Origin: a virus
Reading direction: 5' to 3' (one strand)
IMG/VR virus record: IMGVR_UViG_3300008448_006361
Location: 1-20,365 of that record
DNA: 20,365 nucleotides
Within the stretch, counting starts at the first letter, position 1. The number at the start of each line of letters is the position of its first letter. Below are positions 15 through 13,122 of this stretch, piece by piece. The notes under the pieces were generated by a model. The model made no database searches. It was not told the origin of the DNA and saw only the letters and a program-made list of their open reading frames with translations. The position numbers were made by a program, and so were the translations under genes.

Positions 15-212
15 TTATTTTATTACCCTACCATATGTCAGATTATTTTTTGCTCTGATATCCTTGTGGGTAAACTGCCAGAATTCTCCAGTATCATTTA
101 TCACTACGGTATAAAGAGTATCAGTTTCATGTCCATACTCAGTCACAAGCCAGATTATACCTGGGCCTTTAGGTGTATTAACTTCCATTCTATTATGTGG
201 CTCATAAATCAT
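15..212 (-). CDS. Small conserved-looking phage protein, unknown function
   Basis: A 65-aa ORF on the minus strand. Its ATG overlaps the TGA stop of the upstream transferase-like gene (ATGA overlap), so the two are probably translated from one mRNA. The sequence is rich in alternating hydrophobic and polar residues (IIWLVTEYG, LYTVVINDTG, FWQFTHKDI), which suggests a small beta-barrel such as an SH3-like fold. No catalytic motif or membrane segment is visible. It lies next to a probable protein-modifying enzyme and could be its partner, but that rests only on co-translation. Function unknown; the ORF itself is well supported by the tight coupling. Confidence 0.8.
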   Translation of the reverse strand: MIYEPHNRMEVNTPKGPGIIWLVTEYGHETDTLYTVVINDTGEFWQFTHKDIRAKNNLTYGRVIK

Positions 213-871
213 AAGGTAATATTTATCTTCTCATCTCTGGTTACTAGCTCTGTGTAAAGTTCAATATCTCTTGACCATTCTGAACCAGTCCAGAACTCAA
301 ACCCGGAATACTTAGATTTATATAAACAACATAACTCATATCCCCCTAGTAAATAAACATACTCACAGTTTAATAACCTAGCTGTCTCACATTCATAATA
401 CTGAGCTACTGTACCCAAAGAAAGTTTTGGGTCATGATAATTCCATATAAACTGATAAGCCACAAACTGATTTTCAAATACTCTATATATACTAATACCT
501 ACTAGTACATCTGTCCAGTATTCTATAACCTGGCAATCCTTGAAAGACTCCAGACTGATATCTCTATTAAACTCATGATATTCACAGTATGCTTTATGCA
601 ACTTAACATACTCTTCTAGACTAGCCTCTATATTACCAGCTTGCACAGTAACTTTTTTAGAAAGCCTTCTTGTAGTCTTACTTGGTTTGTATACTGATAA
701 ATCCAAGCGGGTACTCCTTTCATTATACCACTTACCTTCCCAGGGAATCCAACCTTCTTTCAAAGCTTGGGTAGGAGTCTCATCTTCTAAGATACCATAA
801 GCGCAGTTAACAATAACCTCCAGGTTACTAACCTTGCCAAAACCTTTAATATGGTCAAACACAATCTTCAT
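209..871 (-). CDS. Probable aminoacyl-tRNA-protein transferase (ATE/Bpt-like, GNAT fold)
   Basis: A 220-aa protein. An upstream extension to 1165 is open, but its low-complexity Ser/Pro/His-rich translation looks noncoding, so I start at MKIVFDHIKG. Visible features match arginyl/leucyl-tRNA-protein transferases: LKEGW near 37-41 (family: Ll..GwRR), YKPSKTTRR at 61-69 (family: F.PSrsqRR), YHDPKLSLGT at 145-154 (family: YDP...SLGt), YVYLLGGY at 171-178 (family: Y.YLGYyi), and YKSKYSGFEFW at 184-194 (family: YK..f.p.E). The family transfers an amino acid from a charged tRNA to protein N-termini, creating N-degrons. The N-terminal Cys pairs of classical ATE1 are not seen, which fits shorter Bacteroidota relatives. 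Which amino acid it uses cannot be told; a GNAT acetyltransferase is the alternative. It is co-translated with the 65-aa protein. Confidence 0.72.
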   Translation of the reverse strand: MKIVFDHIKGFGKVSNLEVIVNCAYGILEDETPTQALKEGWIPWEGKWYNERSTRLDLSVYKPSKTTRRLSKKVTVQAGNIEASLEEYVKLHKAYCEYHEFNRDISLESFKDCQVIEYWTDVLVGISIYRVFENQFVAYQFIWNYHDPKLSLGTVAQYYECETARLLNCEYVYLLGGYELCCLYKSKYSGFEFWTGSEWSRDIELYTELVTRDEKINITL

Positions 872-1133
872 ATGGTACCTTATTGTGACTACCCCAGGAG
901 TAAGAATGAAAGTAACAACCCCCGGGGCAATCAACCTGTAGCATGGTAAAGGTAGGGAAAAGTTTGGGGATGGACAACTACGGTAATTGGTTTCACTATA
1001 TATATGGGGATGTGGTGACCCATACAGCGCAGGCCCCACCCCCTGAGCAGCAGAGGTGGTACCCCCCATAGAAGCAGAGGGATGATGTGAGAACAGTAGA
1101 AAAAATGTAAGAATGTTTGCACAGGAGAAAGTT
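872..1133. promoter_or_regulatory. GC-richer divergent intergenic region
   Basis: This stretch separates the minus-strand block from the plus-strand early array, so it must carry divergent promoters. It is clearly richer in G and C than its surroundings, with runs such as CCCCCGGGG and GGCCCCACCCCC. On the minus strand two related boxes, GGGGGTTGTTAC and TGGGGTAGTCAC, lie about 33 bases apart just upstream of the transferase start and could be operators or a late promoter. Short inverted repeats such as TATGGG/CCCATA are present. It could also be a replication start region; that is speculation. Confidence 0.45.
943..1071 (+). CDS. Possible 42-aa ORF in the divergent region
   Basis: An ATG-to-TAG ORF of 42 codons on the plus strand. 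Its translation has an aromatic middle (DNYGNWFHYIYGDVV) and a proline-rich end (APPPEQQRWYPP). It sits in the GC-rich divergent patch and has neither the GTTGCARC box nor a clear AT-rich leader. The patch may simply be noncoding and open by chance, since the opposite strand is also open here. I report it because the translation is protein-like; support is weak. Confidence 0.2.
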   Translation: MVKVGKSLGMDNYGNWFHYIYGDVVTHTAQAPPPEQQRWYPP

Positions 1134-1151
1134 TCTGTGGCAGCTTCTATG
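1134..1151 (+). promoter_or_regulatory. Early promoter-like box 1 (GTGGCAGCTTCTAT variant)
   Basis: TCTGTGGCAGCTTCTATG lies about 34 bases before the ATG at 1171. It matches the recurring box GTGTTGCARCTTTTAT found before most genes of the 1.1-4.2 kb array and is nearly identical to the copy at 1859. Confidence 0.6.
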
Positions 1152-1170
1152 TGATGAGAAAACAACAGCT

Positions 1171-1353
1171 ATGATAAAATCTATTCAATTTGTATGTGTG
1201 GGATTGTTGGTGACAATCTTCATGGAAGGAATGTTCACTCTTGGTAGTGCATTTGATTTTGAACACTATAGCGGCTTTGCTTGGGTAACACAAGCAATAG
1301 TTGCTACAGCAGTTATAACTACAGCTCTTAGAGTTGCTAAAGAAGGAGAGTAA
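1171..1353 (+). CDS. Small membrane protein, first gene of the early cassette array
   Basis: A 60-aa protein starting MIKSIQFVCVGLLVTIF. I prefer the ATG at 1171 to the one at 1117 because the promoter-like box lies between them, as in the following cassettes. Residues about 4-26 form a strong membrane segment, and a second hydrophobic stretch covers about 37-53 (VTQAIVATAVITTAL), giving a likely two-pass inner-membrane protein with a short basic/acidic tail. No family is recognised. The stop codon sits in the loop of a terminator hairpin, so it is its own transcription unit. A membrane-targeted early host-takeover role is plausible but unproven. Confidence 0.75.
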   Translation: MIKSIQFVCVGLLVTIFMEGMFTLGSAFDFEHYSGFAWVTQAIVATAVITTALRVAKEGE

Positions 1354-1366
1354 TCTCCTTTTCTTT
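1343..1366 (+). terminator. Terminator hairpin with the stop codon in its loop
   Basis: Stem AAGGAGA/TCTCCTT (7 bp) with loop GTAA, followed by a T-rich tract. The TAA stop of the 60-aa gene is in the loop. Confidence 0.8.
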
Positions 1367-1368
1367 TT

Positions 1369-1385
1369 ATGTTGCAGCTTTAATA
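1369..1385 (+). promoter_or_regulatory. Early promoter-like box 2
   Basis: ATGTTGCAGCTTTAATA, directly after the preceding terminator and 33 bases before the ATG at 1404. Same box as the neighbouring cassettes. Confidence 0.65.
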
Positions 1386-1403
1386 TAAAGTAAAATATAT
1401 ACT

Positions 1404-1631
1404 ATGAACTCAGAAAAAAGAAATGCCTTGTTTGTTGTAACCTACTTTGCTTTAGGTTTATTTGGTGGATGGTTAATAGGTGCTGTTGCATATCATCATC
1501 CAAGACATGTTGACACTGAATACTTCATTGAGTTGAAGGGAGATTCAGCTGTGATAGAAGGATTAGATAGACATACATATACATGTCCTATTGATAGTAT
1601 TCCTGCTGTATTAGAAAGAGATAACCTGTAA
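1404..1631 (+). CDS. Single-pass membrane protein (paralogue of the gene at 7484)
   Basis: A 75-aa protein. A short charged N-terminus (MNSEKRN) is followed by one transmembrane segment at about 8-29, rich in F/G/A, then a soluble domain with EYFIELKGD and a HTYTCP motif near the C-terminus. The start and end closely match the 81-aa protein at 7484-7729 (LFVV.YFALGLFGGW, Y.IELKG, TYTCP, DNL at the end), so the pair arose by duplication. This copy is a stand-alone cassette with its own box and terminator. Orientation is probably N-in with the C-terminal domain in the periplasm, by the positive-inside rule. Function unknown. Confidence 0.85.
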   Translation: MNSEKRNALFVVTYFALGLFGGWLIGAVAYHHPRHVDTEYFIELKGDSAVIEGLDRHTYTCPIDSIPAVLERDNL

Positions 1632-1647
1632 TGGGTTATCTTTTTTC
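1619..1647 (+). terminator. Terminator hairpin with the stop codon in its loop
   Basis: Stem AGATAACC/GGTTATCT (8 bp), loop TGTAATG containing the TAA stop of the 75-aa gene, then a run of six T. Confidence 0.85.
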
Positions 1648-1652
1648 TAACC

Positions 1653-1670
1653 ATAGTGTTGCAGCTTCAT
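1653..1670 (+). promoter_or_regulatory. Early promoter-like box 3
   Basis: ATAGTGTTGCAGCTTCAT, 39 bases (from GTTGC) before the ATG at 1698. The preceding TTTTCTAACC is shared with box 4. Confidence 0.65.
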
Positions 1671-1697
1671 TGTTATAATAATTCTAATATAGTTGTT

Positions 1698-1841
1698 ATG
1701 GCAAATGATATCCCTAAATGTTCTTGTGGTGCAGAAGTAATGTATGATACTTATGAGCATCCTACTGAAGAAAGCATCCGTGTTGATTATGCTGATTGCT
1801 TTGATTGTGCACATAGTGAAGAAAATGAGTTGCCTATTTAG
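1698..1841 (+). CDS. Tiny putative zinc-binding protein
   Basis: A 47-aa acidic protein. The start at MANDIPKC was chosen because the in-frame upstream region is the promoter-like box and leader. Cysteines at 8, 10, 34 and 37 (CSC and CFDC) are spaced as in a small zinc ribbon or knuckle. No membrane segment. Small zinc-binding proteins are common among phage early genes that bind host proteins or nucleic acid, but nothing here names the target. It is a separate cassette whose TAG stop lies in the terminator hairpin. Confidence 0.75.
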   Translation: MANDIPKCSCGAEVMYDTYEHPTEESIRVDYADCFDCAHSEENELPI

Positions 1842-1852
1842 GTAGCTCTTTT
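1827..1852 (+). terminator. Terminator hairpin overlapping the stop codon
   Basis: GAGTTGCCTA pairs with TAGGTAGCTC (10 bp with two G-U pairs), followed by TTTTCT. The TAG stop begins the 3' arm. Confidence 0.7.
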
Positions 1853-1858
1853 CTAACC

Positions 1859-1877
1859 ATAGTGTGGCAGCTTCTAT
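1859..1877 (+). promoter_or_regulatory. Early promoter-like box 4 (GTGGCAGCTTCTAT variant)
   Basis: ATAGTGTGGCAGCTTCTAT, with its GTGGCAGC 39 bases before the ATG at 1903; shares the TGGCAG variant with box 1. Confidence 0.6.
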
Positions 1878-1902
1878 TGGATATGAAATTAAATCTTTTA
1901 CT

Positions 1903-2073
1903 ATGCATAGAGTAGATATTTTTAGTTTCTTGGCATCAGATGCTGCGGAACTAACCAAGATGCAAACGCGTCTTAACCAATGGATGACTGCAAAGTCCTT
2001 GGTGAAGTATGAAATACACACTGCGGGTGAGTACATCATCTTCAATGTTTGCAGAAAGAAAGAGGAGGCTTAG
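1903..2073 (+). CDS. Small early protein, unknown function
   Basis: A 56-aa protein starting MHRVDIFSFL. The longer reading from the GTG at 1864 runs through the promoter-like box, so I reject it. The protein has an amphipathic helical middle (DAAELTKMQTRLNQWMTAK) and a beta-like C-terminal half (YEIHTAGEYIIFNV) with a basic-acidic tail. No known motif, membrane segment or metal site. It is a single-gene cassette with the stop inside a GC-rich hairpin. Confidence 0.75.
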   Translation: MHRVDIFSFLASDAAELTKMQTRLNQWMTAKSLVKYEIHTAGEYIIFNVCRKKEEA

Positions 2074-2088
2074 GCCTCTTCTTCTTTT
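2060..2088 (+). terminator. Terminator hairpin around the stop codon
   Basis: AAGAGG pairs with CCTCTT across AGGCTTAGG, followed by a T-rich tract. The TAG stop lies in the loop. Confidence 0.65.
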
Positions 2089-2093
2089 AAAGC

Positions 2094-2112
2094 ATAGTGT
2101 TGCAGCTTTACT
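2094..2112 (+). promoter_or_regulatory. Early promoter-like box 5
   Basis: ATAGTGTTGCAGCTTTACT, with GTTGC 41 bases before the ATG at 2140. Confidence 0.65.
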
Positions 2113-2139
2113 TGTAATTAAAATTTTAAAGTAAATACA

Positions 2140-2391
2140 ATGGACACAGAAACATTAATTAAAGTAGTTGCTATGCTTGAAAAGAAAGTTTGGAACTTGA
2201 CATATAAGTATAGTGACTTGCAACTATTTATGATAGCACATAACTATAGTAGTGTTGAAATAAAAGAAGCTAAAGAGAAGCATGACATAGAGAGAAAAGC
2301 TTTAGTTGATTTTATGAATCAGTTACAGAAAACTATTGCTGTTAAAATGATTACAGAAGACTTTAGTCATTTGTTTAAAGAGGGAGAGTAA
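2140..2391 (+). CDS. Small helical early protein, unknown function
   Basis: An 83-aa protein that appears almost entirely alpha-helical, with heptad-like hydrophobic spacing (LIKVVAMLEKKVWNL and a charged middle, VEIKEAKEKHDIERKAL), consistent with a short antiparallel coiled coil. No cysteine cluster, membrane segment or catalytic motif. It is an independent cassette with its own box and a strong terminator whose loop contains the stop codon. A protein-binding host-takeover factor is the likeliest class, by inference only. Confidence 0.82.
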   Translation: MDTETLIKVVAMLEKKVWNLTYKYSDLQLFMIAHNYSSVEIKEAKEKHDIERKALVDFMNQLQKTIAVKMITEDFSHLFKEGE

Positions 2392-2402
2392 TCTCCCTTT
2401 TA
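2381..2402 (+). terminator. Terminator hairpin with the stop codon in its loop
   Basis: Stem AGGGAGA/TCTCCCT with loop GTAA and following T tract. Same GTAA loop holding the TAA stop as at 1343. Confidence 0.8.
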
Positions 2403-2406
2403 AAGC

Positions 2407-2425
2407 ATTGGGTTGCAACTTTTAT
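2407..2425 (+). promoter_or_regulatory. Early promoter-like box 6
   Basis: ATTGGGTTGCAACTTTTAT, with the palindrome GTTGCAAC 43 bases before the ATG at 2455. Confidence 0.65.
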
Positions 2426-2454
2426 AGTAATATAAACCTTTTAATCTTTTTATT

Positions 2455-2760
2455 ATGAACAAAACTCTAAGATTTGGATACCAATCATTTGGTAAGCACA
2501 AACTGATTAAAATCAATGCTAAGATCTCTTCTGCTTCTGCTGATAAGATTGCTAAAGCTTTTCCTGACCTTTGGGCTCTTAACAATGGAAAGCATGGATT
2601 TAGAATTGAGGGATGCTTGCCATCTAAGGATATTCTTGATTTTGATGATGCACTTAAGCTTGCTATCATTGACTACAAGATTAATGCCTTACAGCAAAAA
2701 GCATTTGACATTGAGATTAATGCTGAATGCAGAAAGGATGCATTTAGCCTTAGCATCTAA
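2455..2760 (+). CDS. Early protein of 101 aa, unknown function
   Basis: A 101-aa basic/neutral protein. The first third reads as beta strands (KTLRFGYQSF, HKLIKINAKI), followed by an Ala/Ser-rich helix (SASADKIAKAFPDLWAL), a turn with NNGKHGFRIEG, and a helical end (DDALKLAIIDYKINALQQKAF). The pattern suggests a compact alpha/beta fold. No known active-site motif. Frames on both strands overlap it, but only this frame has the box, a correctly spaced leader and a terminator after the stop. Confidence 0.82.
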   Translation: MNKTLRFGYQSFGKHKLIKINAKISSASADKIAKAFPDLWALNNGKHGFRIEGCLPSKDILDFDDALKLAIIDYKINALQQKAFDIEINAECRKDAFSLSI

Positions 2761-2766
2761 GCAATT

Positions 2767-2793
2767 GGGGGAGTAGAAATACTCTCCCTTTTT
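2767..2793 (+). terminator. Strong terminator hairpin with GAAA tetraloop
   Basis: GGGGGAGTA pairs with TACTCTCCC (9 bp, one G-U) around GAAA, then five T. It lies six bases after the stop codon. Confidence 0.85.
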
Positions 2794-2794
2794 G

Positions 2795-2814
2795 CATTGT
2801 GTTGCAACTTTATT
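2795..2814 (+). promoter_or_regulatory. Early promoter-like box 7
   Basis: CATTGTGTTGCAACTTTATT, immediately after the terminator T tract, with GTTGCAAC 39 bases before the ATG at 2840. Confidence 0.65.
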
Positions 2815-2839
2815 ATCAAGTAAAATTAAATTCTACACT

Positions 2840-3028
2840 ATGACCAATTTTATTAAAGATGTGCTTTTAGAGATTGAGGGGATCTCAATTCTATTGAAGC
2901 AAGAAAGAACTAAGGATGTGATGAAAGCTATAAGCAAATTGCCTGAGAAGGATATTGTTGCTTACAGAGATTCACTTGCTGATGAATTTAAAGTGTTGAA
3001 TCCAAATAAACACTTGCTGTTATCATAG
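2840..3028 (+). CDS. Small helical early protein, unknown function
   Basis: A 62-aa protein starting MTNFIKDVLLEIEG; the in-frame ATG at 2792 precedes the box and is rejected. Nearly all of it is predicted amphipathic helix (IKDVLLEIEGISILLKQ, VMKAISKLPEKDI), with a short polar tail. It resembles a small helical bundle or dimerising coiled coil. No conserved motif recognised. It is a single-gene cassette, though the next small ORF (3085) has no box of its own and may be read through from here. Confidence 0.78.
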   Translation: MTNFIKDVLLEIEGISILLKQERTKDVMKAISKLPEKDIVAYRDSLADEFKVLNPNKHLLLS

Positions 3029-3031
3029 TAG

Positions 3032-3060
3032 AAGGGGGGGAAGCAATTCCCCTTTTACTT
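3032..3060 (+). terminator. Terminator hairpin with G-run stem
   Basis: A run of eight G preceded by AA pairs with CCCCTT across AAGCAATT, followed by TTACTTTTTT. Confidence 0.7.
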
Positions 3061-3087
3061 TTTTATTTACTTAATATATATAGTATG
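3061..3087 (+). promoter_or_regulatory. AT-rich leader of the TTATTTACTTA class
   Basis: TTTATTTACTTA lies about 23 bases before the ATG of the 47-aa gene. Similar leaders precede the genes at 6233, 8136 and 9606, none of which has a close GTTGCARC box. It may be a second promoter class or an AT-rich translation enhancer. Confidence 0.4.
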
Positions 3088-3228
3088 GAAGAAGAAGTAT
3101 GTGTTGTCTTAACTTGGGAAGAGTTGAAGACAGTATTAGCAGGACTGTCAGCCATCAAGAATATGGTAGACAATGACAAGCTTGATGCAGTATATGTCAA
3201 GCTGAGCACACAGTATAAGGGAGTCTAA
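3085..3228 (+). CDS. 47-aa early protein, unknown function
   Basis: A short ORF (47 codons) starting MEEEVCVVLTWEEL and ending QYKGV. It fills the gap between two cassettes. Support comes from an AT-rich leader with TTTATTTACTTA, a helix-forming acidic translation (ELKTVLAGLSAIKNMVDND), and a hairpin whose loop holds the TAA stop, exactly as in the neighbours. It has no GTTGCARC box, so it is either served by another promoter or by read-through. No family recognised. Confidence 0.72.
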   Translation: MEEEVCVVLTWEELKTVLAGLSAIKNMVDNDKLDAVYVKLSTQYKGV

Positions 3229-3237
3229 CTCTCTTAT
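3217..3237 (+). terminator. Hairpin with the stop codon in its loop
   Basis: AAGGGAGT pairs with ACTCTCTT (8 bp, one G-U) around CTA. The T tract is poor, so it may be a weak terminator or a 3'-end-protecting hairpin. Confidence 0.6.
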
Positions 3238-3240
3238 ACC

Positions 3241-3259
3241 ATTGTGTTGCAACTTTTAT
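3241..3259 (+). promoter_or_regulatory. Early promoter-like box 8
   Basis: ATTGTGTTGCAACTTTTAT, with GTTGCAAC 45 bases before the ATG at 3290. One of the closest copies to the consensus. Confidence 0.7.
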
Positions 3260-3289
3260 TTTAGAATAAAACCCCTTAATTTATTTATT

Positions 3290-3721
3290 ATGAACAAGAT
3301 TATTGAAGTAGCCTTAACAGGCAAGTTTGGAACTGAAGCTGTACCAAGTCTAATGGAAGTGATTAATATCACACCTAATCCTGAAATGGCAACTGAGATC
3401 CTATTAGGCATCTACACACAGCCTAAAATTCCTTCAACAGTTGTCAATGAACAAGGCTTAGAAAAGACAGCCACTCACATTGACTACTGGAGAATGCGTG
3501 TTAGTTACTCTTATCAAGAAGAGGTGCGACAGCACATCTATGTTGATCAAGATTGTGACACAAGTGTAATCACTCTTGAAAACTACAAGGAGTTTGAAAG
3601 GGATTACGGCTCTGGGAACATCAAGTCACACAGGATTCCAACTGGTGAGATAAGAACAAGACAAGATTCTTGTGAGTTCGGAGACTGGTTGGCACAAGAG
3701 GCAAAAGAGTTAGCTGTGTGA
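3290..3721 (+). CDS. Early protein of 143 aa, unknown function
   Basis: A 143-aa soluble protein starting MNKIIEVALTGKFG. The longer frame from 3242 passes through the box and is rejected. The N-terminal half looks helical (AVPSLMEVINITPNPEMA); the middle has WRMRVSYSYQEE and a charged stretch IYVDQDCDTSVITLENY; the C-terminus (CEFGDWLAQEAKELAV) is an acidic helix. The ending EELAV/KELAV is shared with the protein ending at 4614, a small similarity that may be chance. No motif recognised. Independent cassette with a strong terminator. Confidence 0.82.
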   Translation: MNKIIEVALTGKFGTEAVPSLMEVINITPNPEMATEILLGIYTQPKIPSTVVNEQGLEKTATHIDYWRMRVSYSYQEEVRQHIYVDQDCDTSVITLENYKEFERDYGSGNIKSHRIPTGEIRTRQDSCEFGDWLAQEAKELAV

Positions 3722-3727
3722 TTAAAG

Positions 3728-3752
3728 GGGAAGAGAAATCTTCCCTTTTTTT
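3728..3752 (+). terminator. Strong terminator hairpin with GAAA tetraloop
   Basis: GGGAAGA/TCTTCCC (7 bp) around GAAA, then seven T, a few bases after the stop. Confidence 0.88.
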
Positions 3753-3758
3753 CTTTGG

Positions 3759-3777
3759 ATTGTGTTGCAACTTTTAT
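3759..3777 (+). promoter_or_regulatory. Early promoter-like box 9
   Basis: ATTGTGTTGCAACTTTTAT, identical to box 8, with GTTGCAAC 35 bases before the ATG at 3798. Confidence 0.7.
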
Positions 3778-3797
3778 GGGATAATAAACTAACTATT

Positions 3798-4100
3798 ATG
3801 AAAACAATTTCTGAAATGAAAGCAACAGTTGTTGCACTTGGACAAATGGTTCACACTGACAAACTAAGTAGACCTTACCTTTGGGGGAAAATCTTATTGG
3901 CTGAGACACAAGAAACATCTTGGGTTATCATCTATGATTTCTTTGTAGGAGCAGGTACTAAACTCATAGTATATCCATTAGCTGATACTTCACGCTATGG
4001 GATAAAGCATGTTGAAGAGCATAATGATCTTGTAACAGACGCTATAGAGATGTTGGTAGAAAGAAAGGTTGCTGAAGCCTTGGCTAAGAGAAGGGTGTAA
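3798..4100 (+). CDS. Early protein of 100 aa, unknown function
   Basis: A 100-aa protein starting MKTISEMKATVVALGQM; the start follows the box and leader and the in-frame upstream ATG at 3762 is rejected. It has an alternating beta-like core (SWVIIYDFFVGAGTKLIVYPL) and a helical C-terminal end rich in Glu/Lys/Arg (AIEMLVERKVAEALAKRRV). A small alpha-beta fold is likely. No active-site motif or membrane segment. Single-gene cassette with the stop inside the terminator loop. Confidence 0.82.
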   Translation: MKTISEMKATVVALGQMVHTDKLSRPYLWGKILLAETQETSWVIIYDFFVGAGTKLIVYPLADTSRYGIKHVEEHNDLVTDAIEMLVERKVAEALAKRRV

Positions 4101-4113
4101 CAACCCTTTTTTT
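4091..4113 (+). terminator. Terminator hairpin with the stop codon in its loop
   Basis: AAGGGT/ACCCTT (6 bp) with loop GTAACA holding the TAA stop, then a continuous T tract. Confidence 0.82.
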
Positions 4114-4128
4114 AGTTAGTAGCCCAAA

Positions 4129-4172
4129 GTGTTTTATGGCTTTCAGCCAAGCCTTTGCAACTTTTATAGTAA
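4129..4172 (+). promoter_or_regulatory. Hairpin-plus-box promoter element, copy 1 (box 10)
   Basis: GTGTTTTATG is followed by the hairpin GGCT-TTC-AGCC and then CAAGC and TTTGCAACTTTTATAGTAA. The ATG at 4210 follows about 55 bases after TTGCAAC. The whole element recurs at 4739-4783 with a changed but still paired stem. Confidence 0.65.
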
Positions 4173-4209
4173 GTAAAATTATTTACTAATTCCTTAAAAC
4201 CAAATTAAA

Positions 4210-4614
4210 ATGGGAAAAAAGAAAGTTGTGTTGAAATTCAAAGAAGAAACAACACCAAATGGTAATGTAGTTAAGAATGCCACATTTGCGGGTACTCTTC
4301 TGCGCATGTCTGAAAAAGTATTTGAGTATACTAATGCAGATGGTGTTGTAGTTAACTACAAGTTGGCTGATGTGCGTTATACTGATGCAGTTGGAACTAC
4401 TCACGTAGAACCAAATGTGCATGTGTATGAGGCAAGCTATGAGCAAGACATGGAGGTTGGTGAAACTTACTTGGGTAGAGTAACCCGCAGTAAGAATGCT
4501 GATGGGAGTGCTCGTGACCCTTGGTTCAATTTGTATTCTGTAGTTGTTGGTGTGCGTAGCACTGATGATGACTTTGAAGAGTACGAGGTACCTGCAGAGG
4601 AGCTTGCTGTATAA
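4210..4614 (+). CDS. Beta-rich early protein, possibly OB-fold
   Basis: A 134-aa protein. After a basic start (MGKKKVVLKFKEET) it is dominated by beta-strand-like segments: ATFAGTLLRMSEKVFEYT, VVVNYKLADVRYTD, NVHVYEASYEQDMEVGETYLG, and FNLYSVVVGV, then an acidic tail (DDDFEEYEVPAEELAV). A basic beta-barrel with an acidic C-terminal tail is the layout of many phage single-strand DNA-binding proteins, but this cannot be confirmed by eye. It is the last of the contiguous cassettes and has the strongest terminator of the array. Codon use fits its neighbours. Confidence 0.82.
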   Translation: MGKKKVVLKFKEETTPNGNVVKNATFAGTLLRMSEKVFEYTNADGVVVNYKLADVRYTDAVGTTHVEPNVHVYEASYEQDMEVGETYLGRVTRSKNADGSARDPWFNLYSVVVGVRSTDDDFEEYEVPAEELAV

Positions 4615-4625
4615 GCATGTGGGAA

Positions 4626-4660
4626 ATAGGGTGTGTAGAAATACACACTCTATTTTTTTT
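4626..4660 (+). terminator. Very strong terminator with 12-bp stem and GAAA loop
   Basis: ATAGGGTGTGTA pairs with TACACACTCTAT (one G-U) around GAAA, then seven T. It closes the contiguous array. Confidence 0.92.
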
Positions 4661-4662
4661 GT

Positions 4663-4677
4663 CTCCACCGTGTGGAG
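4663..4677. repeat. Perfect triloop hairpin
   Basis: CTCCAC/GTGGAG (6 bp) around CGT, just after the strong terminator. Same triloop architecture as the hairpins at 4138-4148 and 4748-4760, but not followed by a GCAACTTT box. Confidence 0.5.
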
Positions 4678-4738
4678 CATTGGCATTTTATGTAGCAATA
4701 GCAAGGGTACCATGCAATGCATACTACTTAAAAATATT

Positions 4739-4783
4739 GTGTTTTATGCCTTTTCAAGGCAAGCTTCTGCAACTTTAATAGTA
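4739..4783 (+). promoter_or_regulatory. Hairpin-plus-box promoter element, copy 2 (box 11)
   Basis: GTGTTTTATG, hairpin GCCTT-TTC-AAGGC, then AAGCTTCTGCAACTTTAATAG. It aligns with copy 1 at 4129. The stem bases differ but pairing and the TTC loop are kept. No ORF follows, so it probably drives a noncoding transcript. Confidence 0.6.
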
Positions 4784-5010
4784 AAACCCAAGATAAGCAC
4801 CTACCTCACAGCGGTCAGCGCAGCGGTCATTGATGCTATCATAGCAGGGACAGTGCGGTCAAACCAACAAGTTTGTAGCAAGGAACTGCAAAACTGTAGA
4901 AGCTAGACTGGGCGGGGGTTACAGAGATTATTTTTGTGTGAGAATGAGGGTGATTTGGGGTGAAAAACACTCCATGTTATTACAGTAGCAGGTCTAGCCA
5001 CAGATTTAGT
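4784..5010 (+). ncRNA. Candidate structured early noncoding RNA
   Basis: There is no credible ORF in this GC-richer stretch, yet it follows promoter-like element 11. Visible pairing: TGCTA/TAGCA around TCA (4834-4846), CAAAC/GTTTG (4860-4875), a long-range stem GCTAGAC(TG) at 4902-4910 with CA(G)GTCTAGC at 4989-4998, and within it GGGGTG/CACTCC around AAAAA (4957-4973). Three copies of GCGGTC occur at 4811, 4823 and 4855. The 3' end is not clear; no strong terminator is seen. Antisense regulator, sponge RNA or packaging/replication signal are all possible. Confidence 0.4.
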
Positions 5011-5346: not shown

Positions 5347-5364
5347 AATCCTAAACTATATACT

Positions 5365-7483: not shown

Positions 7484-7729
7484 ATGAACACAGAAAAAAG
7501 AAACAGTTTATTTGTAGTGTCTTACTTTGCATTAGGACTATTTGGTGGTTGGATTATGGGGTCAGTAAGACCTGTTCCAGGCATGAAACCAGAGCATAAT
7601 ATTAAGCCTGAATACTACATTGAATTAAAAGGTAATGGATCTGCTATAATAGAAGATCTTGGCGGTAACACCTACACTTGCCCAACAATTGAAGACATAC
7701 CAAATGTATTAATTAAAGACAACTTGTAA
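7484..7729 (+). CDS. Single-pass membrane protein (paralogue of the gene at 1404)
   Basis: An 81-aa protein with the same plan as the 75-aa gene at 1404: charged start MNTEKRN, a membrane segment at about 8-29, a variable linker (here longer, with GMKPEHNIKPE), then YYIELKGNGSAIIED, TYTCP and the ending DNL. It is not followed by a terminator hairpin; the next ORF starts one base after the stop, so unlike its paralogue it is part of an operon. Identity is highest in the membrane segment and the ending, which suggests these matter most. Function unknown. Confidence 0.85.
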   Translation: MNTEKRNSLFVVSYFALGLFGGWIMGSVRPVPGMKPEHNIKPEYYIELKGNGSAIIEDLGGNTYTCPTIEDIPNVLIKDNL

Positions 7730-7991: not shown

Positions 7992-7999
7992 TACCAAAT

Positions 8000-8073
8000 G
8001 GTTCCATAGCTCAATTGGATAGAGCAACACACTTCTAATGTGTAGGTTACAGGTTCGACTCCTGTTGGAATCA
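8000..8073 (+). tRNA. trnR: tRNA-Arg (anticodon UCU)
   Basis: A full cloverleaf can be drawn: acceptor GGTTCCA/TGGAATC (one G-U), D stem GCTC/GAGC, anticodon stem ACACA/TGTGT with loop CTTCTAA, five-base variable loop, T stem ACAGG/CCTGT with loop TTCGACT, and discriminator A. Loop positions 34-36 are TCT, reading AGA (and AGG) arginine codons. No CCA is encoded. The loop keeps U33 and A37. AGA is the arginine codon used most in these AT-rich genes, so codon supply is the simplest role. A terminator follows at once. Confidence 0.95.
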
Positions 8074-8077
8074 CTAT

Positions 8078-8104: not shown

Positions 8105-8109
8105 ATATC

Positions 8110-8135
8110 TTATTTATTCACTTAAAATTCTGATT
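8110..8135 (+). promoter_or_regulatory. AT-rich leader of the TTATTTATTCACTTA class
   Basis: TTATTTATTCACTTA followed by TTCTGATT just before the ATG; shares both parts with the leader of the gene at 6233. Confidence 0.45.
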
Positions 8136-8450
8136 ATGAACATGTTAGGAAAACTATTTAACAAGAAGAAAACATTAAAAGCAACACCAGCTTTAAAGGT
8201 GTGCATTATTGATGACACAACAACAGACTTGTGGACTACCTTAGGTATTACACCAGAAAGAAGGGATGAGTTAGTTGATATTTGTGAGGAAGCTTATCAT
8301 CAATTTGATGGAAAGTCACGGTGTTATGAGTACATTGTAGATCATTGTAAACATGTCAATGAAGTAATTACAGCCACAATTGTATTTGAAAGAATGTGTG
8401 AAGGTCCTGGTAACCAATTTGCAGGTTTAATTAAACTCTTTGGAAGATGA
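8136..8450 (+). CDS. Small protein of 104 aa, unknown function
   Basis: A 104-aa protein. A basic, amphipathic N-terminus (MNMLGKLFNKKKTLKATPAL) could bind membrane or RNA. It is followed by VCIIDDTTTDLWTTLGITPE, a helical region with ERRDELVDICEEAYHQFDG, and a Cys/His-containing stretch (CYEYIVDHCKHVNEV) that could hold a metal, though spacing does not match a standard finger. The stop overlaps the next start (ATGA), forming a three-gene operon with 8447 and 8665. No family recognised. Confidence 0.82.
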   Translation: MNMLGKLFNKKKTLKATPALKVCIIDDTTTDLWTTLGITPERRDELVDICEEAYHQFDGKSRCYEYIVDHCKHVNEVITATIVFERMCEGPGNQFAGLIKLFGR

Positions 8451-8668
8451 AAGTATTTGAATTTGACTCAGTAATAGGTTTTGATTTCAACCTACAACTA
8501 ATTGACCGGGATGGTGAGTTAGTTAAAACAGGAGTAAAGCGTGGTTATGTTGCTGAACTACAAGAATTACCACAAATTGGTAACAACTTTGGTAATACAA
8601 GATGGTTCACCAACTTTAATGAATCACTATTGGCTAAGATCAGAGATTACAAAAGACTAAACACATGA
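8447..8668 (+). CDS. Small protein of 73 aa, unknown function
   Basis: A 73-aa protein, with the ATG overlapping the upstream TGA. Segments such as MKVFEFDSVIGFDFNLQLID read as a beta strand followed by an acidic turn, and the C-terminus is a basic helix (NESLLAKIRDYKRLNT). There are no cysteines and no membrane segment. Its stop again overlaps the start of 8665, so the three proteins are probably made in similar amounts and may work together. Function unknown. Confidence 0.8.
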   Translation: MKVFEFDSVIGFDFNLQLIDRDGELVKTGVKRGYVAELQELPQIGNNFGNTRWFTNFNESLLAKIRDYKRLNT

Positions 8669-9084
8669 ATGTATCAGTAACATATGATGATTCTGATGTT
8701 GCTAAAGCATTAGAAAAGATTATTGTAGACAAGAATAGTGCTGAGTTTGTAAAACTCTTTACTCCTATGATTTGTCAAAGCTCACATGCATCTAATTGGC
8801 TATTCAAGTTGATGCTTGGTAATGCTTTGCCTGAGGTAATACCAACAGGTACACTTTGCAAGTTCAGCGTTGATAATTTAGGCTATGGTGCTAACAAAGA
8901 TCATATTAAAGCTAAGTATGCTGATTCAGAGGACAAAATAGTTGTGACCATAAGAGAGTTTAGAGGCTTTCATGACTACAGTCATTATCTTGTCAACTAT
9001 ACCAATGTTAATGAACATGGTCAAGATAAACAAGACTATTGCACTGCTCAAGCAAACCAGCTAAAGATAATTAAGGAAATTTAA
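8665..9084 (+). CDS. Protein of 139 aa, unknown function
   Basis: A 139-aa protein that ends the three-gene operon. The N-terminal half is helical (DVAKALEKIIVDKNSAEFVK, NWLFKLMLGNA); the C-terminal half is beta-like with GTLCKFSVDNLGYGAN and KIVVTIREFRGFHDYSHYLV. The last block, rich in Tyr/His/Asn/Gln (NEHGQDKQDYCTAQANQ), is polar. No catalytic motif is evident. It is followed by a clear terminator at 9124. Probably a soluble regulator or binding protein; not identified. Confidence 0.83.
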   Translation: MNVSVTYDDSDVAKALEKIIVDKNSAEFVKLFTPMICQSSHASNWLFKLMLGNALPEVIPTGTLCKFSVDNLGYGANKDHIKAKYADSEDKIVVTIREFRGFHDYSHYLVNYTNVNEHGQDKQDYCTAQANQLKIIKEI

Positions 9085-9123
9085 CGTAGTATATCTGTTG
9101 GTATGCTTTTCCTAACAAATAAC

Positions 9124-9149
9124 AAGGGGCTGTAATGGCCCCTTTTTAT
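9124..9149 (+). terminator. Terminator of the 8136-9084 operon
   Basis: AAGGGGC/GCCCCTT (7 bp) around TGTAATG, then a T tract. Confidence 0.85.
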
Positions 9150-9160
9150 TGTCTTAGCTA

Positions 9161-9178
9161 TATAGTGCAGCATTTTAA
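9161..9178 (+). promoter_or_regulatory. Degenerate early promoter-like box 12
   Basis: TATAGTGCAGCATTTTAA resembles the ATAGTGTTGCAGCTTTAT box with a deletion. It is about 75 bases before the ATG at 9240, farther than usual, so this is tentative. Confidence 0.35.
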
Positions 9179-9239
9179 TTCTTTAATGAATCCATGTCAG
9201 GAATAATGGCATATATTTACTAAAGTTTATGCATTCACT

Positions 9240-9506
9240 ATGTTATATCAGTTGCCTAATGGCAAAGTTATATATTTAACAATTGAGCAATATCTTGAGC
9301 TCACTGATGAAGATGTCCAATACCTGATGTCACTAAATGCTGGTGAATATGCATTAAATCCATTCACAGATTCTGCAGTTGTAGAAAACACCAAAGAAAA
9401 ATACTATGACTTTGATTATCTAACAGATGATGAAAGTGATAGCATTATTTCAGATGATGAACCATTTGATGAAATAATAGACTTATCTGGTCCTACAGAT
9501 ATATAA
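9240..9506 (+). CDS. Acidic small protein, unknown function
   Basis: An 88-aa protein. It starts MLYQLPNGKVIYLTIEQYLE and is followed by TDEDVQYLMSLNAG, then an extended highly acidic C-terminus (DYLTDDESDSIISDDEPFDE, ending EIIDLSGPTDI). The short ordered head plus acidic tail is a layout seen in phage proteins that mimic DNA or occupy nucleic-acid-binding surfaces, which is only a suggestion here. I recall similar LPNGKVIYLT proteins in crAss-like phages but cannot verify it. Monocistronic, with a hairpin after the stop. Confidence 0.82.
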   Translation: MLYQLPNGKVIYLTIEQYLELTDEDVQYLMSLNAGEYALNPFTDSAVVENTKEKYYDFDYLTDDESDSIISDDEPFDEIIDLSGPTDI

Positions 9507-9562
9507 TAGTTCCACTTCTGATGGAACAGCACTTACTATAGCTTGAGTAACTATAGTATAGT
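9507..9562. repeat. Two inverted repeats between the acidic protein and the 157-aa gene
   Basis: GTTCCA/TGGAAC (9507-9525), then ACTATAG and CTATAGT around CTTGAGTAA. The first may be a weak terminator (no T tract); the second, being a palindrome at a promoter position, may be an operator. Confidence 0.4.
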
Positions 9563-9580
9563 ATTCTACTCAATCACTTA

Positions 9581-9605
9581 TTATTTACTTATTAATTTTT
9601 ATGTT
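9581..9605 (+). promoter_or_regulatory. AT-rich leader TTATTTACTTATTAATTTT
   Basis: Leader of the 157-aa gene. Same class as those at 3061, 6199 and 8110. Confidence 0.45.
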
Positions 9606-10079
9606 ATGAGCGCAAGTTCTAAAGTTGCTGTTGTATCTGATCCTACCACTGGAGCAGTTATTAACCAATCTCCTAATAATCCTGAATGGGGTTATATCAA
9701 AGTGGAGCAAACTACAAATGTCTATGATGACAATGGCTTTCTTAATAGAAAGAAAGTATCAGCTATTATCTCTGCACCAATTGTTATTCTACAAGAAGCA
9801 GGTTACTTTGCTGGTCAAATGTTGGATGGAAGAATTGTTGTACAAGAATCTATCACACCATGGAATGAAAAGAATCCAGAGCGTGATTTGAAAGTAGCAG
9901 GTGCTACTGGTATTATCTGCCGTATTGAGGGTCAACCAATTTACCGCAAAACTTTCTACACTGAGAAAGAGAATGCTAAAGACATTTTCCTTGCTCATGA
10001 TAATGTAGATGAATTGAAAAGAGCTTACAATGCTGAAAGAGTATCTGCTATTACTGCAGACCAGTCTTTTGATATCTAA
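9606..10079 (+). CDS. Beta-rich protein with acidic tail, candidate ssDNA-binding protein
   Basis: A 157-aa protein starting MSASSKVAVVSDPTTG. The longer reading begins at a TTG within an AT-rich leader and is rejected. The core has strand-like segments (WGYIKVEQTTNVYDD, KKVSAIISAPIVILQEAG, GRIVVQESITPW, ATGIICRIEGQPIYRKTFYT) and ends with a polar helix and ADQSFDI. A beta-barrel with an aromatic/acidic C-terminal tip, placed at the front of the replication block, is what a phage SSB would look like, but no defining motif is present. It has a strong leader and its own terminator, consistent with high expression. Confidence 0.85.
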   Translation: MSASSKVAVVSDPTTGAVINQSPNNPEWGYIKVEQTTNVYDDNGFLNRKKVSAIISAPIVILQEAGYFAGQMLDGRIVVQESITPWNEKNPERDLKVAGATGIICRIEGQPIYRKTFYTEKENAKDIFLAHDNVDELKRAYNAERVSAITADQSFDI

Positions 10080-10099
10080 TTGAATGTTGATTGATGGAG

Positions 10100-10131
10100 A
10101 GGGGGAGACATGTGCGTTTCCCCTTTTTCTT
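10100..10131 (+). terminator. Terminator after the 157-aa gene
   Basis: AGGGGGA pairs with TCCCCTT (including a G-T) across a loop of about 12 bases, followed by TTTTTCTTTT. Confidence 0.75.
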
Positions 10132-10156
10132 TTACTTATGATTAAACCTGTATACT

Positions 10157-10642
10157 ATGGAAAAGTTAAAACAAGATGTAAGAAATTACCAGATGAGATC
10201 ACATACTGTGATGTCATATGAGCAAGATGGCTACAACAGCTATCAAAATTATCTTTACAAAAGAGCACTCTACGGTCTAGATGCTCTAACAGAAAAAGAA
10301 CTTGCTACTATGTGTAGTAAGAAAAAGCAAAGAATTGTCAATGTGTATAAGCGTGCACAGGTTACACTTAACAAGTTTAAGCAGCAAATTACTATTCAAT
10401 ATAGTAACTTTCTGTTCAGTACTTTGTTCCCTGAAAGCCCAATTACACAGGCATTACTTGCTGATACTGAGACAGATGAAAAGTTCAAGAACACTTTAAC
10501 TTTTAAAGATTTAGGTATCACAAAAGAACAAATTATCAGTATCTTTATGCTTGAAGGGATCCTTCCTAAAAACTTCTTAAGTTTAGAAGGGCCACAAAAC
10601 CAACTACCAAGACTAAAGAATGATAAAACTGAAAGAATGTGA
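10157..10642 (+). CDS. Protein of 161 aa, unknown function, first of the replication operon
   Basis: A 161-aa protein, basic and helical. It begins MEKLKQDVRNYQMRSHTVMS, has a Tyr/Gln-rich section (YNSYQNYLYKRALYGL), a charged helix (EKELATMCSKKKQRIVNVYK), and a hydrophobic acidic tail region (TKEQIISIFMLEGILPKNFL). It overlaps the next gene by 23 bases. Overlap with an HNH protein and position before a ParB-like protein and a helicase suggest a nucleic-acid role, but no motif is recognised. An upstream terminator separates it from the 157-aa gene. Confidence 0.85.
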   Translation: MEKLKQDVRNYQMRSHTVMSYEQDGYNSYQNYLYKRALYGLDALTEKELATMCSKKKQRIVNVYKRAQVTLNKFKQQITIQYSNFLFSTLFPESPITQALLADTETDEKFKNTLTFKDLGITKEQIISIFMLEGILPKNFLSLEGPQNQLPRLKNDKTERM

Positions 10643-11027
10643 TGGTTGTCAAAAGATGACTGTTATATGGAAGAACCATGAGGGATTCAAATACTGTAAA
10701 TATTGCTGGAGTTGCCAAAAAGCCATTAATAGTGACAGTTCACAGAAACCAAACGACTACAAAGTCCCTCAGGTATCTTCCAAAAGAAAAAAGAAAGATG
10801 CTGAGTACCTCAAGTTGAGAGAAAGGTTCCTCACTGAAAATCCAATATGTCAGGTCTCTGTAGCCGGTTGTATGAATGGTAGTACTGATGTGCACCATAC
10901 ATATGCCGGCTCTAACAGGGATGCCTTCTATTTAGTACAGTCAACTTGGTTGTCTGTGTGTAGAAACTGTCATAATTGGGTGCATGAAAATCCTGCAGAG
11001 GCTAGAATACTGAACTACTTAAAATAA
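10620..11027 (+). CDS. HNH-type zinc-binding protein
   Basis: A 135-aa protein with two zinc sites. N-terminal cysteines at 7, 10, 26 and 29 form a zinc ribbon; after a basic linker (SSKRKKKDAEY), the C-terminal half carries CQVSVAGC (77-84), DVHHTY (90-95) and CRNCHNWVH (114-122). The His-His pair, Asn119 and His122 are placed as in HNH nucleases, with C77/C84 and C114/C117 as the structural zinc site. Similar proteins are frequent in Bacteroidota phages and related to NinG-type recombination proteins. It lies next to ParB-like and helicase genes, which fits DNA recombination or nicking. Nuclease activity is inferred. Confidence 0.8.
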   Translation: MIKLKECDGCQKMTVIWKNHEGFKYCKYCWSCQKAINSDSSQKPNDYKVPQVSSKRKKKDAEYLKLRERFLTENPICQVSVAGCMNGSTDVHHTYAGSNRDAFYLVQSTWLSVCRNCHNWVHENPAEARILNYLK

Positions 11028-11042
11028 TATGATTTAAAACTT

Positions 11043-11789
11043 ATGATTATGAAGATGATTGGAAAAGATCTTAAGATCAAACACACAACAACTTATTCAA
11101 CTTTCTCTGTATTACCTATGAACAGAGGTATTGATAGCAAACATGTACAGAAAATGATTACAAGTCTTAGACTACAAGGCTGTGTTAGAGTAGTAATATG
11201 TTGTAGGACTAACATTATTGAAGGTGAATGGAAAACCTACATTATTGATGGTCAGCATATGGCTACTGCATTAGAAAGAGAAGGGGCACCAATTCCTTAT
11301 ATTGAGGTTGAGATTACATCTGAAGAAGATCTTATTGAAAAGATGGCATATCTTAATAACTCATCTAAGTCTTGGGACATGATGAACTTTATCAATGCTT
11401 GGAAAATGATCCGCCCAGACTACATGAAGTTGTTTAAGTGGAAGAACATGTATGACATTGAGATTACCATGTTAGCAATTATTGGTGTTAACAATACTGC
11501 AATTCAAAAAAGTACTGGAGTAATTAAAACAGGAAACTTCAAAATTACTAATCCAAATGCAGAAGATATGTGTAAAGCATTCAATGATATCTTCTTAAAG
11601 ATTGGTAAGTCTGACAGAGCTGTTAAGTTTCAGTTTTTGAATGCATTCATGCAAGCATACAATCCAAAGTATGACCATAACAAAACCATGGCTGCTATTG
11701 ACAAACACCTTAAAACTGTTAAGTTGATGGCTATTGGTGATGAGACTGGTGCATTTATTAGAAAACAAATATTTAAACTTCCAAAGTAA
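11043..11789 (+). CDS. ParB/Srx-like domain protein
   Basis: A 248-aa protein. The N-terminal 90 residues match the ParB-type N-terminal fold: a start like LPMNRGIDSKHVQKMITSLR, a strand (VRVVICCRTN) and the signature YIIDGQHMATALEREG (66-81), where DGQH replaces the usual GxRR/DGhHR motif, then PYIEVEI. The remaining 150 residues are helical and may bind DNA. ParB-type domains bind CTP or nick DNA; which applies here is unknown. MKMIG at 11049 is an alternative start. The stop shares its last base with the start of the helicase gene, so the two are coupled. Confidence 0.75.
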   Translation: MIMKMIGKDLKIKHTTTYSTFSVLPMNRGIDSKHVQKMITSLRLQGCVRVVICCRTNIIEGEWKTYIIDGQHMATALEREGAPIPYIEVEITSEEDLIEKMAYLNNSSKSWDMMNFINAWKMIRPDYMKLFKWKNMYDIEITMLAIIGVNNTAIQKSTGVIKTGNFKITNPNAEDMCKAFNDIFLKIGKSDRAVKFQFLNAFMQAYNPKYDHNKTMAAIDKHLKTVKLMAIGDETGAFIRKQIFKLPK

Positions 11790-12880
11790 TGGATAGACAA
11801 GACATCCAATTTGAGGCACTGTCTGCAACTGATGGTAAACAGAAATGTTCTGTTGTATTAGGCACAGGGGTCGGTAAGACCCTTGTTGGCCTAAACTATA
11901 TTAACAGGAATTCAACTCCGTTAATGAAGGTACTGGTTGTAGCACCAAAGAAATCAATATTCCAGTCATGGAAAGATGATGCGGTCAAGTTTGATATGCA
12001 ACATCTATTAGGTAGAATTGTATTTACTACTTACCTCAGCTTGAATAAGTATAAGCCTGGTGACTTTGATATGGTCTGTTTGGATGAATGTCATTCCTTG
12101 CTAGATAGTCACAGAGGCTTTTTACAATTATATAAAGGGAAGATACTGGGTTTAACCGGTACTCCTCCCAAGTATAAAGATTCAGAGAAAGGTAAGTTAG
12201 TAAATGAATTCTGTCCTGTAGCATATACTTTCAAAGCAGATGATGCTATAGAAAATGGGATACTCAATGATTATCAGATCATTGTACACCAGCTAGAGCT
12301 TGATACTAATAAAACCTACCCTGTAGCAATGAAAACTAAAACTTTCAAAACTTCAGAGTATGACAATTACAAGTACTGGTCTAACAGACTAGAAACAAGT
12401 TCTGGACCTGTGCATATACTCAGAGTTATGCGCATGAAGGCAATGATGGAGTATCCAACTAAAGAAAGGTATGCTAAGAAACTAATGGAGTTTATTACTA
12501 CCAAATGTATTCTTTTTGCTAATACTCAAGAGCAAGCTGATAGGCTGTGTCAACATAGTTATCATAGTAACAATTCTGAATCTGAGATTAACTTAGAAAT
12601 GTTCAAGAAAGGTACTATAACTAAACTATCCACAGTACTACAGCTTAATGAGGGTGTTAACATACCTAATCTTAGACAAGGTATCATTATGCATGCATAT
12701 GGTAATGAGAGAAAAGCTTCTCAGAGAATAGGTAGATTACTCCGCCTTAATCCTGATGAGAAAGCTATTGTCCATATACTATGTTATATGGGTACTGTAG
12801 ATGAGAGATGGGTTAAAGAAGCTCTTGAAACATTTGATCAGAGTAAAATACTCTGGAAAGATTACGGAATAAAACTATAA
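11789..12880 (+). CDS. SF2 DEAD/H-box-type DNA helicase (ATPase)
   Basis: A 363-aa two-domain motor. Motif I GTGVGKT (25-31), Ia VVAPKKSIFQSW (50-61), II DECH (99-102), III TGTP (123-126), and in the second RecA domain QLNEGVNIPNLRQGI (motif V region) and QRIGRLLRL (motif VI, 312-320, with arginine fingers). ATP hydrolysis drives DNA unwinding or translocation, as in the RecG/UvsW/Type III Res families. It has no extra nuclease or zinc domain. It is coupled to the ParB-like gene upstream and the ClpS-like gene starts two bases downstream. Likely role: replication fork or recombination intermediate processing. Family call is secure; substrate is inferred. Confidence 0.93.
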   Translation: MDRQDIQFEALSATDGKQKCSVVLGTGVGKTLVGLNYINRNSTPLMKVLVVAPKKSIFQSWKDDAVKFDMQHLLGRIVFTTYLSLNKYKPGDFDMVCLDECHSLLDSHRGFLQLYKGKILGLTGTPPKYKDSEKGKLVNEFCPVAYTFKADDAIENGILNDYQIIVHQLELDTNKTYPVAMKTKTFKTSEYDNYKYWSNRLETSSGPVHILRVMRMKAMMEYPTKERYAKKLMEFITTKCILFANTQEQADRLCQHSYHSNNSESEINLEMFKKGTITKLSTVLQLNEGVNIPNLRQGIIMHAYGNERKASQRIGRLLRLNPDEKAIVHILCYMGTVDERWVKEALETFDQSKILWKDYGIKL

Positions 12881-12882
12881 TT

Positions 12883-13122
12883 ATGGAACTACCTGAAGAT
12901 CACAAACTCATCTTGTATAATGATGAGACTAATAGTTTCCCTTATGTTATGGCATGTCTTGTTAGATTCTGTGGACATGAACCACAACAAGCAGAACAAT
13001 GTGCTTTAGTTGCTGATCTTGTAGGTCAGTGTACTGTAAAACATGGCTGTTGGGCACAAATATCAACAATGGCAGAACTTCTTGAAAGTGTTGGCTTAAC
13101 TGTTAAAATATCAACATTGTGA
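12883..13122 (+). CDS. clpS: ClpS-like N-degron adaptor
   Basis: A 79-aa protein that covers nearly the whole ClpS core. LYNDETNSFPYVMACL (11-26) matches ClpS L.NDd.t..eyV...L, AEQCALVADLVGQC matches A..la..vH..G, and LLESVGLTVKI matches the C-terminal L...gl.l. Asn13 and Asp14, the equivalents of E. coli N34/D35 that hold the substrate N-terminal amine, are kept. The third pocket residue, His66 in E. coli, falls on Asp45. ClpS brings proteins with N-terminal Leu, Phe, Tyr or Trp to ClpAP; this version could redirect or block that. The stop overlaps the GTG start of the next gene. Confidence 0.8.
   Translation: MELPEDHKLILYNDETNSFPYVMACLVRFCGHEPQQAEQCALVADLVGQCTVKHGCWAQISTMAELLESVGLTVKISTL

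Follow-up and report, generated by a model that had tools for sequence, protein, structure and literature searches.

An accessory ATE-like transferase gene and a near-constant ClpS gene without the N-terminal extension in a predicted crAss-like phage lineage

ClpS carried by phages is already known. A survey of jumbo phages names a phage ClpS and proposes that targets are brought to the host ClpAP (PMC7824862), and the description of phage Atu_ph07 places ClpS (gp708) among seven Clp-like proteins, including Clp unfoldases and a protease (PMC6102473). For a phage-encoded aminoacyl-tRNA-protein transferase of the ATE type, a literature search of limited reach found no earlier report. Here we analysed 20,365 nucleotides of viral DNA (IMG/VR record IMGVR_UViG_3300008448_006361, positions 1 to 20,365), hereafter called the window, in which a sequence-only reading had proposed a possible N-degron module made of an ATE/Bpt-like transferase, a ClpS-like adaptor and a tRNA-Arg. 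The coordinates, both family assignments and the tRNA stood, and the unit did not: ATE was found to be an accessory gene and ClpS a near-constant gene of the phage group, and the two are not a fixed pair. We tentatively favour, with a probability of about 0.45, the reading that this crAss-like lineage touches the N-degron pathway through two separately inherited genes, a ClpS core that does not deliver its substrates and an independent accessory transferase. Coordinates are positions in the window unless another record is named, and the basis of each feature is given with it.

209-871, minus strand: ATE/Bpt-like aminoacyl-tRNA-protein transferase, 220 residues from the ATG (Pfam ATE_C and ATE1-like model)
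12883-13122, plus strand: ClpS-family adaptor core, 79 residues (Pfam ClpS), no N-terminal extension, Asp45 at the position of the pocket His
8000-8074, plus strand: tRNA-Arg with anticodon UCU (TCT) (ARAGORN)

Pfam analysis of the open reading frame (ORF) at 209-871 revealed ATE_C as the sole family at E ≤1 (28.1 bits, cut-off 25, E 3.5e-6). Six arginyltransferase models of NCBIfam matched, all far under cut-off (best 24.2 versus 252 bits), and the arginyltransferase equivalog cut-off was not reached. In PHROGs only phrog_37056 was found (E 0.024), a search of the phage collection gave no match, and no cellular relative came from a scan of genome contigs that used the ATE alignment. The AlphaFold model, with a predicted local distance difference test score (pLDDT) of 79 and residues 1-23 under 50, has an ATE1-like predicted fold consisting of a GNAT domain and an N-terminal domain. 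Comparison of this model with the PDB gave human ATE1 (8tzv) as the top match (Z 14.3 over 200 residues), and Foldseek also ranked ATE1 first (E 3.8e-8). With 8tzv, 7wg1 and 7tif as the ATE1 structures compared, the model aligned with ATE1 of yeast and K. lactis over 188 to 197 residues, and with that of human and K. lactis over 193-200 residues. Acetyltransferases did not match better than ATE/Bpt proteins, although VipF, a GNAT acetyltransferase of Legionella, equalled ATE1 on Z alone (14.1), with smaller coverage (143 residues).

Alignment by hhalign of a 22-row phage ATE profile with five Bacteroidota ATE proteins gave 95.8% probability over 154 columns; the identity was 19-23%, and Ser-Leu-Gly and Gly-Tyr were common to both sets. 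The N-terminal metal motif of ATE1 is described as CX2CXnCC (PMC10115844). No CxxC was present within the first 110 residues in any of the 22 phage rows or of the five Bacteroidota rows. As judged from these alignments, the absent motif speaks against a eukaryotic-type ATE1, not against the wider ATE/Bpt family. The phage protein is thus like ATE1/Bpt in ATE_C and predicted fold, and unlike them in its length of 220 residues, its low identity to Bacteroidota ATE, the lack of CX2CXnCC and its operon with p65, a small conserved gene described below.

The same comparisons bear on the alternative that the protein is a GNAT-fold enzyme with another acceptor. Candidates would be p65 or a virion protein, or else a lipid or a peptide on the pattern of MprF and FemX. 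FemX, MprF and acetyltransferases reached Z of about 11 to 14, though with smaller coverage (120-174 residues for the non-ATE1 chains listed, versus 188-200 for ATE1 chains), and both the constant presence of p65 and the missing Cys motif would fit such an enzyme. However, ATE_C was the only Pfam match, and the Ser-Leu-Gly and Gly-Tyr elements are common with Bacteroidota ATE proteins which themselves lack CxxC. We therefore regard another acceptor as unlikely. The ATE-like protein is probably an active enzyme, and a transferase by prediction.

The ORF at 12883-13122 matched Pfam ClpS well over the cut-off (49.8 versus 23 bits), in agreement with its reading as a ClpS-like adaptor; the NCBIfam ClpS equivalog cut-off was not reached (best 25.6 versus 117 bits). 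In IMG/VR, 50 relatives of ATE were found, and 45 and 130 relatives of two ClpS types, these two lists not having been compared for overlap. The ratio of nonsynonymous to synonymous substitution rates (dN/dS) was about 0.07-0.15 for ATE in six of seven comparisons, the seventh having no computable dS, and 0.06-0.38 for ClpS in five comparisons; dN was lower than dS for both genes wherever dS could be computed. Since both are conserved in relatives (50 for ATE, 45 for ClpS) with low dN/dS, neither ORF is a product of chance. In a tree of 62 distinct phage and 80 cellular ClpS sequences, with duplicates removed and one cellular row as an arbitrary root, phage ClpS formed one clade (support 0.98) apart from two huge-phage copies, and the type with Asp at the pocket position did not form a clean single clade.

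Phage ClpS shares with ClpS of Bacteroidota and E. coli the core with its Asn-Asp pair, N13 and D14, which was invariant in the phage alignment. Phage Asn13 falls on residue 34 of E. coli ClpS, which means that about 21 residues at the start of the E. coli protein have no counterpart in the phage protein. We take N34-D35 of the E. coli protein to be pocket residues, and H66 to be its pocket His. An extension of about 25 residues was absent from the window ClpS, and its frame upstream of 12883 holds no in-frame ATG, GTG or TTG, only the rare starts CTG, ATA and ATT. When the whole open frame was examined in 75 helicase-linked phage loci, the farthest in-frame ATG was 12 residues ahead of the Asn-Asp (ND) motif in 68, and in 64 when GTG and TTG were also counted, whereas 79 of 80 Bacteroidota ClpS loci have an in-frame Met at least 20 residues ahead of it. 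At the pocket position, His was retained in all 80 Bacteroidota rows, unlike in the window lineage with its Asp; over 79 phage loci there were 40 His, 37 Asp and two others, both Asn. ClpS was also found in three uncultured phages of 635-642 kb. Two huge phages (L113, LR756502; L114, LR756504) carry ClpS as the window phage does, and differ from it in the stretch ahead of the ND motif, which is 26 and 29 residues long versus 12 in the window, and in keeping the pocket His.

A study of ClpA reports that the unfoldase grips and pulls the ClpS extension, and that blocking entry of the extension inhibits delivery (PMC9663308). From its sequence, the phage ClpS core probably binds without delivering.

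The genes next to ClpS were found to be as follows.

11789-12880, plus strand: ResIII-type helicase, fixed upstream neighbour of ClpS (Pfam ResIII 48.1 bits, phrog_16 144.2 bits)
11043-11789, plus strand: ParB-like protein in the ClpS context (phrog_12305, 57.4 bits)

Of 129 loci retrieved with the helicase, a query that makes no selection for ClpS, the best 80 were kept, and ClpS lay directly downstream in all 78 loci with room. Therefore, ClpS belongs to the regular gene set of the lineage. ATE has a different distribution. It was present in three of the 10 helicase-retrieved, ClpS-bearing records with at least 12 kb upstream, that is, covering the ATE site; in one of the 45 ClpS records (one of the four with at least 13.2 kb of room); and in three of 31 searched loci, picked by room or size among 160. 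None was found in 20 searched of the 80 helicase loci, an empty answer that is weak alone, although the same query found ATE elsewhere. Conversely, ClpS was found in 15 of the 50 ATE records, and in 12 of the 14 with at least 13.2 kb on the right side; two ATE records (G006 and G047) lack it. In the 14 records where it was measured, the spacing between the genes was 8.9 to 13.2 kb, and that of G036, a relative of 122,794 bases with both genes, fits across contig ends; some of these records are near-copies (G031/G032, and G034/G037/G043 with identical spacing). Among 14 records of at least 100 kb, which leave out L504 (122,643 bases, with ATE), seven had both genes, four had ClpS only and three had ATE only, one of them (G033) ending beside ATE; these records give no test of association, since they were picked for either gene or for the terminase. 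Thus the survey of relatives revealed no consistent co-occurrence, and ATE, ClpS and the tRNA as a single unit were rejected on their distribution.

These counts also bear on whether chosen proteins receive a destabilising residue from ATE and are then passed by phage ClpS to the host Clp protease. Both families are present and conserved, and 13 of 15 ATE-linked ClpS rows keep the pocket His (judged by eye, four rows being one sequence), the window and G074 having Asp. In addition, an ATE_C protein was found in only six of the 46 ClpS-bearing Bacteroidota genomes taken from the 80 Bacteroidota ClpS loci; with no ATE_C match in the other 40, most hosts of this kind would gain from the phage an enzyme missing from their own genomes. 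The presence of ClpS in 12 of the 14 ATE records points the same way, but such a number is also expected from a near-constant ClpS. Against cooperation, ClpS without ATE is common (seven of the 10 records covering the site), ATE occurs without ClpS, the fixed neighbour of ATE is p65 and not ClpS, and ClpS lacks the delivery extension. We consider a cooperating module doubtful; joint action in those phages which have both genes is possible, and the evidence does not favour it.

The tRNA-Arg (UCU) noted at 8000 in the sequence-only reading was confirmed by ARAGORN. AGA accounts for 113 of the 152 Arg codons in 23 ORFs, which best explains the tRNA. It occurs with or without ATE: it is present in the ATE-negative record G073 (L074, L130), and in four records with both genes it was not found, in G031, G032 and G034 over the 10-kb ATE flanks and in G036 over all seven pieces. 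A role as supply of the Arg donor for ATE was rejected, as its presence does not follow ATE. The tRNA most likely serves AGA codons, in line with the earlier remark that it may do no more than this.

ClpP (PF00574) was found in none of the 14 large records, and Clp-type AAA_2 was not found over the cut-off in any of them, with two weak matches in G047. A phage-borne Clp protease was therefore rejected, and the Clp partner would be that of the host. This is unlike Atu_ph07, which has Clp unfoldases and a protease (PMC6102473). As to the host, the best 80 cellular ClpS relatives kept by a scan, with search patterns derived from phage ClpS, carried Bacteroidota titles without exception, which suggests a host from this phylum.

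On the favoured reading of two separately inherited genes, the ClpS core would bind N-degrons, the N-domain of the host Clp unfoldase, or both, with no handover of substrate. It would compete with host ClpS or switch the specificity of the host Clp unfoldase, and degradation by the Clp protease would be altered. The ATE-like enzyme would move an amino acid from a charged tRNA onto the N-terminus of some protein, acting with p65, and sometimes with an HExxH protein, from an overlapping operon. Several points weigh against this reading. The activity, donor and substrate of ATE, and likewise the binding and competition of ClpS, are things that we infer, as is the Bacteroidota host itself. The 40 of 79 phage ClpS proteins with the pocket His may, by sequence, be ordinary N-degron binders. 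In seven of the 75 phage loci a start at GTG or TTG would place 22 to 30 residues ahead of the ND motif, and in three a start at ATG would place 19 there. Most of the extension can be changed with delivery kept, according to the ClpA study (PMC9663308). The requirement for an extension is established for E. coli ClpA, while the partner here would be a Bacteroidota Clp unfoldase. The predicted structure of ClpS is poor (pLDDT 55), and this model supplies no interface argument. Finally, the counts of absence are weak because most viral records are fragments.

The surroundings of ATE were also compared. The gene p65 was passed over in the sequence-only reading, and the HExxH gene is exemplified by G036.

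15-212, minus strand: p65, conserved protein of 65 residues of no known family; its start codon overlaps the ATE stop codon, with 4 bases shared
16195-16638 of L126 (G036), minus strand: HExxH ORF, overlapping ATE by 4 bases

Directly behind ATE, p65 was found in 49 of the 50 ATE loci, 69 to 94% identical, the fiftieth locus being cut at the contig end. By aligned starts, 47 of the 49 loci show an overlap of ATE and p65, of 4 or 11 bases; in L007, L048 and L049 there is a p65 ATG one codon above the aligned start. Of 34 records, 15 had ATE and 14 of these had p65 as well; p65 was found in none of the 19 without ATE, several of the 19 not covering the site. In the distant lineage L047/L048, identity to the window copy is 75 to 81% for p65 and 47 to 48% for ATE. 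The window p65 had no match in Pfam, PHROGs, NCBIfam or PADLOC and no significant match among PDB sequences; two divergent copies gave only weak matches to phrog_21907 (E 0.25 and 0.086). In the phage collection one distant match was found (MW091528, 31.8%, E 8e-4), which lies beside terminase genes with no annotated ATE adjoining. PADLOC gave no match for five proteins. When the best 80 of 209 p65 loci were inspected, ATE was upstream of p65 in 69 and absent in 11. Therefore, p65 is wider than ATE, and an exclusive partnership with ATE was ruled out. In two loci without ATE (L485 and L500), an HExxH ORF takes its place upstream of p65. In L549 and L554-L558, p65 has no ATE upstream and adjoins a small conserved protein that carries the motif WQR.EGKN.

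An HExxH ORF precedes ATE in 25 of the 43 loci with room, overlapping by 4 bases every time; the distinct cases listed are 137 to 148 residues long. The gene is missing from the window and from 18 other loci. The HExxH ORF tested had no Pfam match and nothing significant among PDB sequences, so that "metallopeptidase" is a reading of the motif; in PHROGs the L126 protein had no match, and the HExxH ORF of L500, which is a different one, gave phrog_20436 (function unknown, 4e-10). These genes allow an operon that cuts and tags, in which the HExxH protein would cleave chosen host proteins, ATE would tag the new N-termini with a destabilising residue, p65 would select or hold the target, and the extension-less ClpS core would control access of tagged proteins to the host Clp protease; the window would then be a reduced form without the HExxH gene. 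We regard such an operon as improbable.

Other genes were found at or near the ATE site. At the place where relatives have ATE, the ATE-negative G073 (L130) has a SET-domain protein (9641-10021 of that record, minus strand; PF00856, 52.6 bits), whose gene adjoins a homologue of the window ORF at 1404-1631. Upstream of ATE there is a 2OG-Fe(II) oxygenase in L008, an HNH protein in L007 and a PhoH-like protein in L048. ATE is thus located in a variable island which also holds potentially protein-modifying enzymes. This island, with its SET and 2OG oxygenase genes, together with the independent distribution of ATE and ClpS, would suit unrelated cargo, each gene kept for its own ordinary reason and neither acting on the N-degron pathway; as the family motifs are kept in both proteins and dN is lower than dS, we consider this very improbable.

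The phage type was determined with G036. A PHROGs scan of 10 of its proteins found a DNA polymerase, a major head protein, a portal and a terminase, and it has ORFs of 4028, 2145 and 1921 codons. A search with its terminase gave 120 phage records, by the first word of their names uncultured (46), Bacteroides (30), Flavobacterium (29) and others. The major head protein gave 10 records, including Leptolyngbya phage Lbo-JY46 (29% over 99%), csAssE-Sib and Cellulophaga phages. By this gene content and these matches, we call the window phage crAss-like. The ClpS relatives suggest a Bacteroidota host; the closest head protein, however, is from a cyanophage.

Outside these loci, one further enzyme was identified.

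17037-17750, plus strand: uracil-DNA glycosylase-like protein (PF03167, 37.3 bits over a cut-off of 24.3; NCBIfam NF003592, 140.5 bits, below the cut-off of 162)

Six copies of TGTTGCA followed by RCTT were found in intergenic gaps of the plus strand, at 1370, 1657, 2098, 2800, 3245 and 3763, mostly 3′ of a T-rich stretch and just ahead of a start codon, and are a candidate early promoter. The ORFs at 1404-1631 and 7484-7729 (plus strand) are small, membrane-like and similar to each other, a paralogous pair; they match one ORF of L130 at 59 and 60% identity.

The tie between ATE and p65 offers a first way into the study of p65, a very conserved phage protein which belongs to no known family. 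If the favoured reading is true, the phage ATE/Bpt-type transferase would give a virus the means to write degradation signals on proteins, and the ClpS core without a delivery tail would be a natural non-delivering ClpS. As relatives of both proteins are numerous in one viral collection, phage manipulation of the bacterial N-degron pathway would be directly testable with small proteins.

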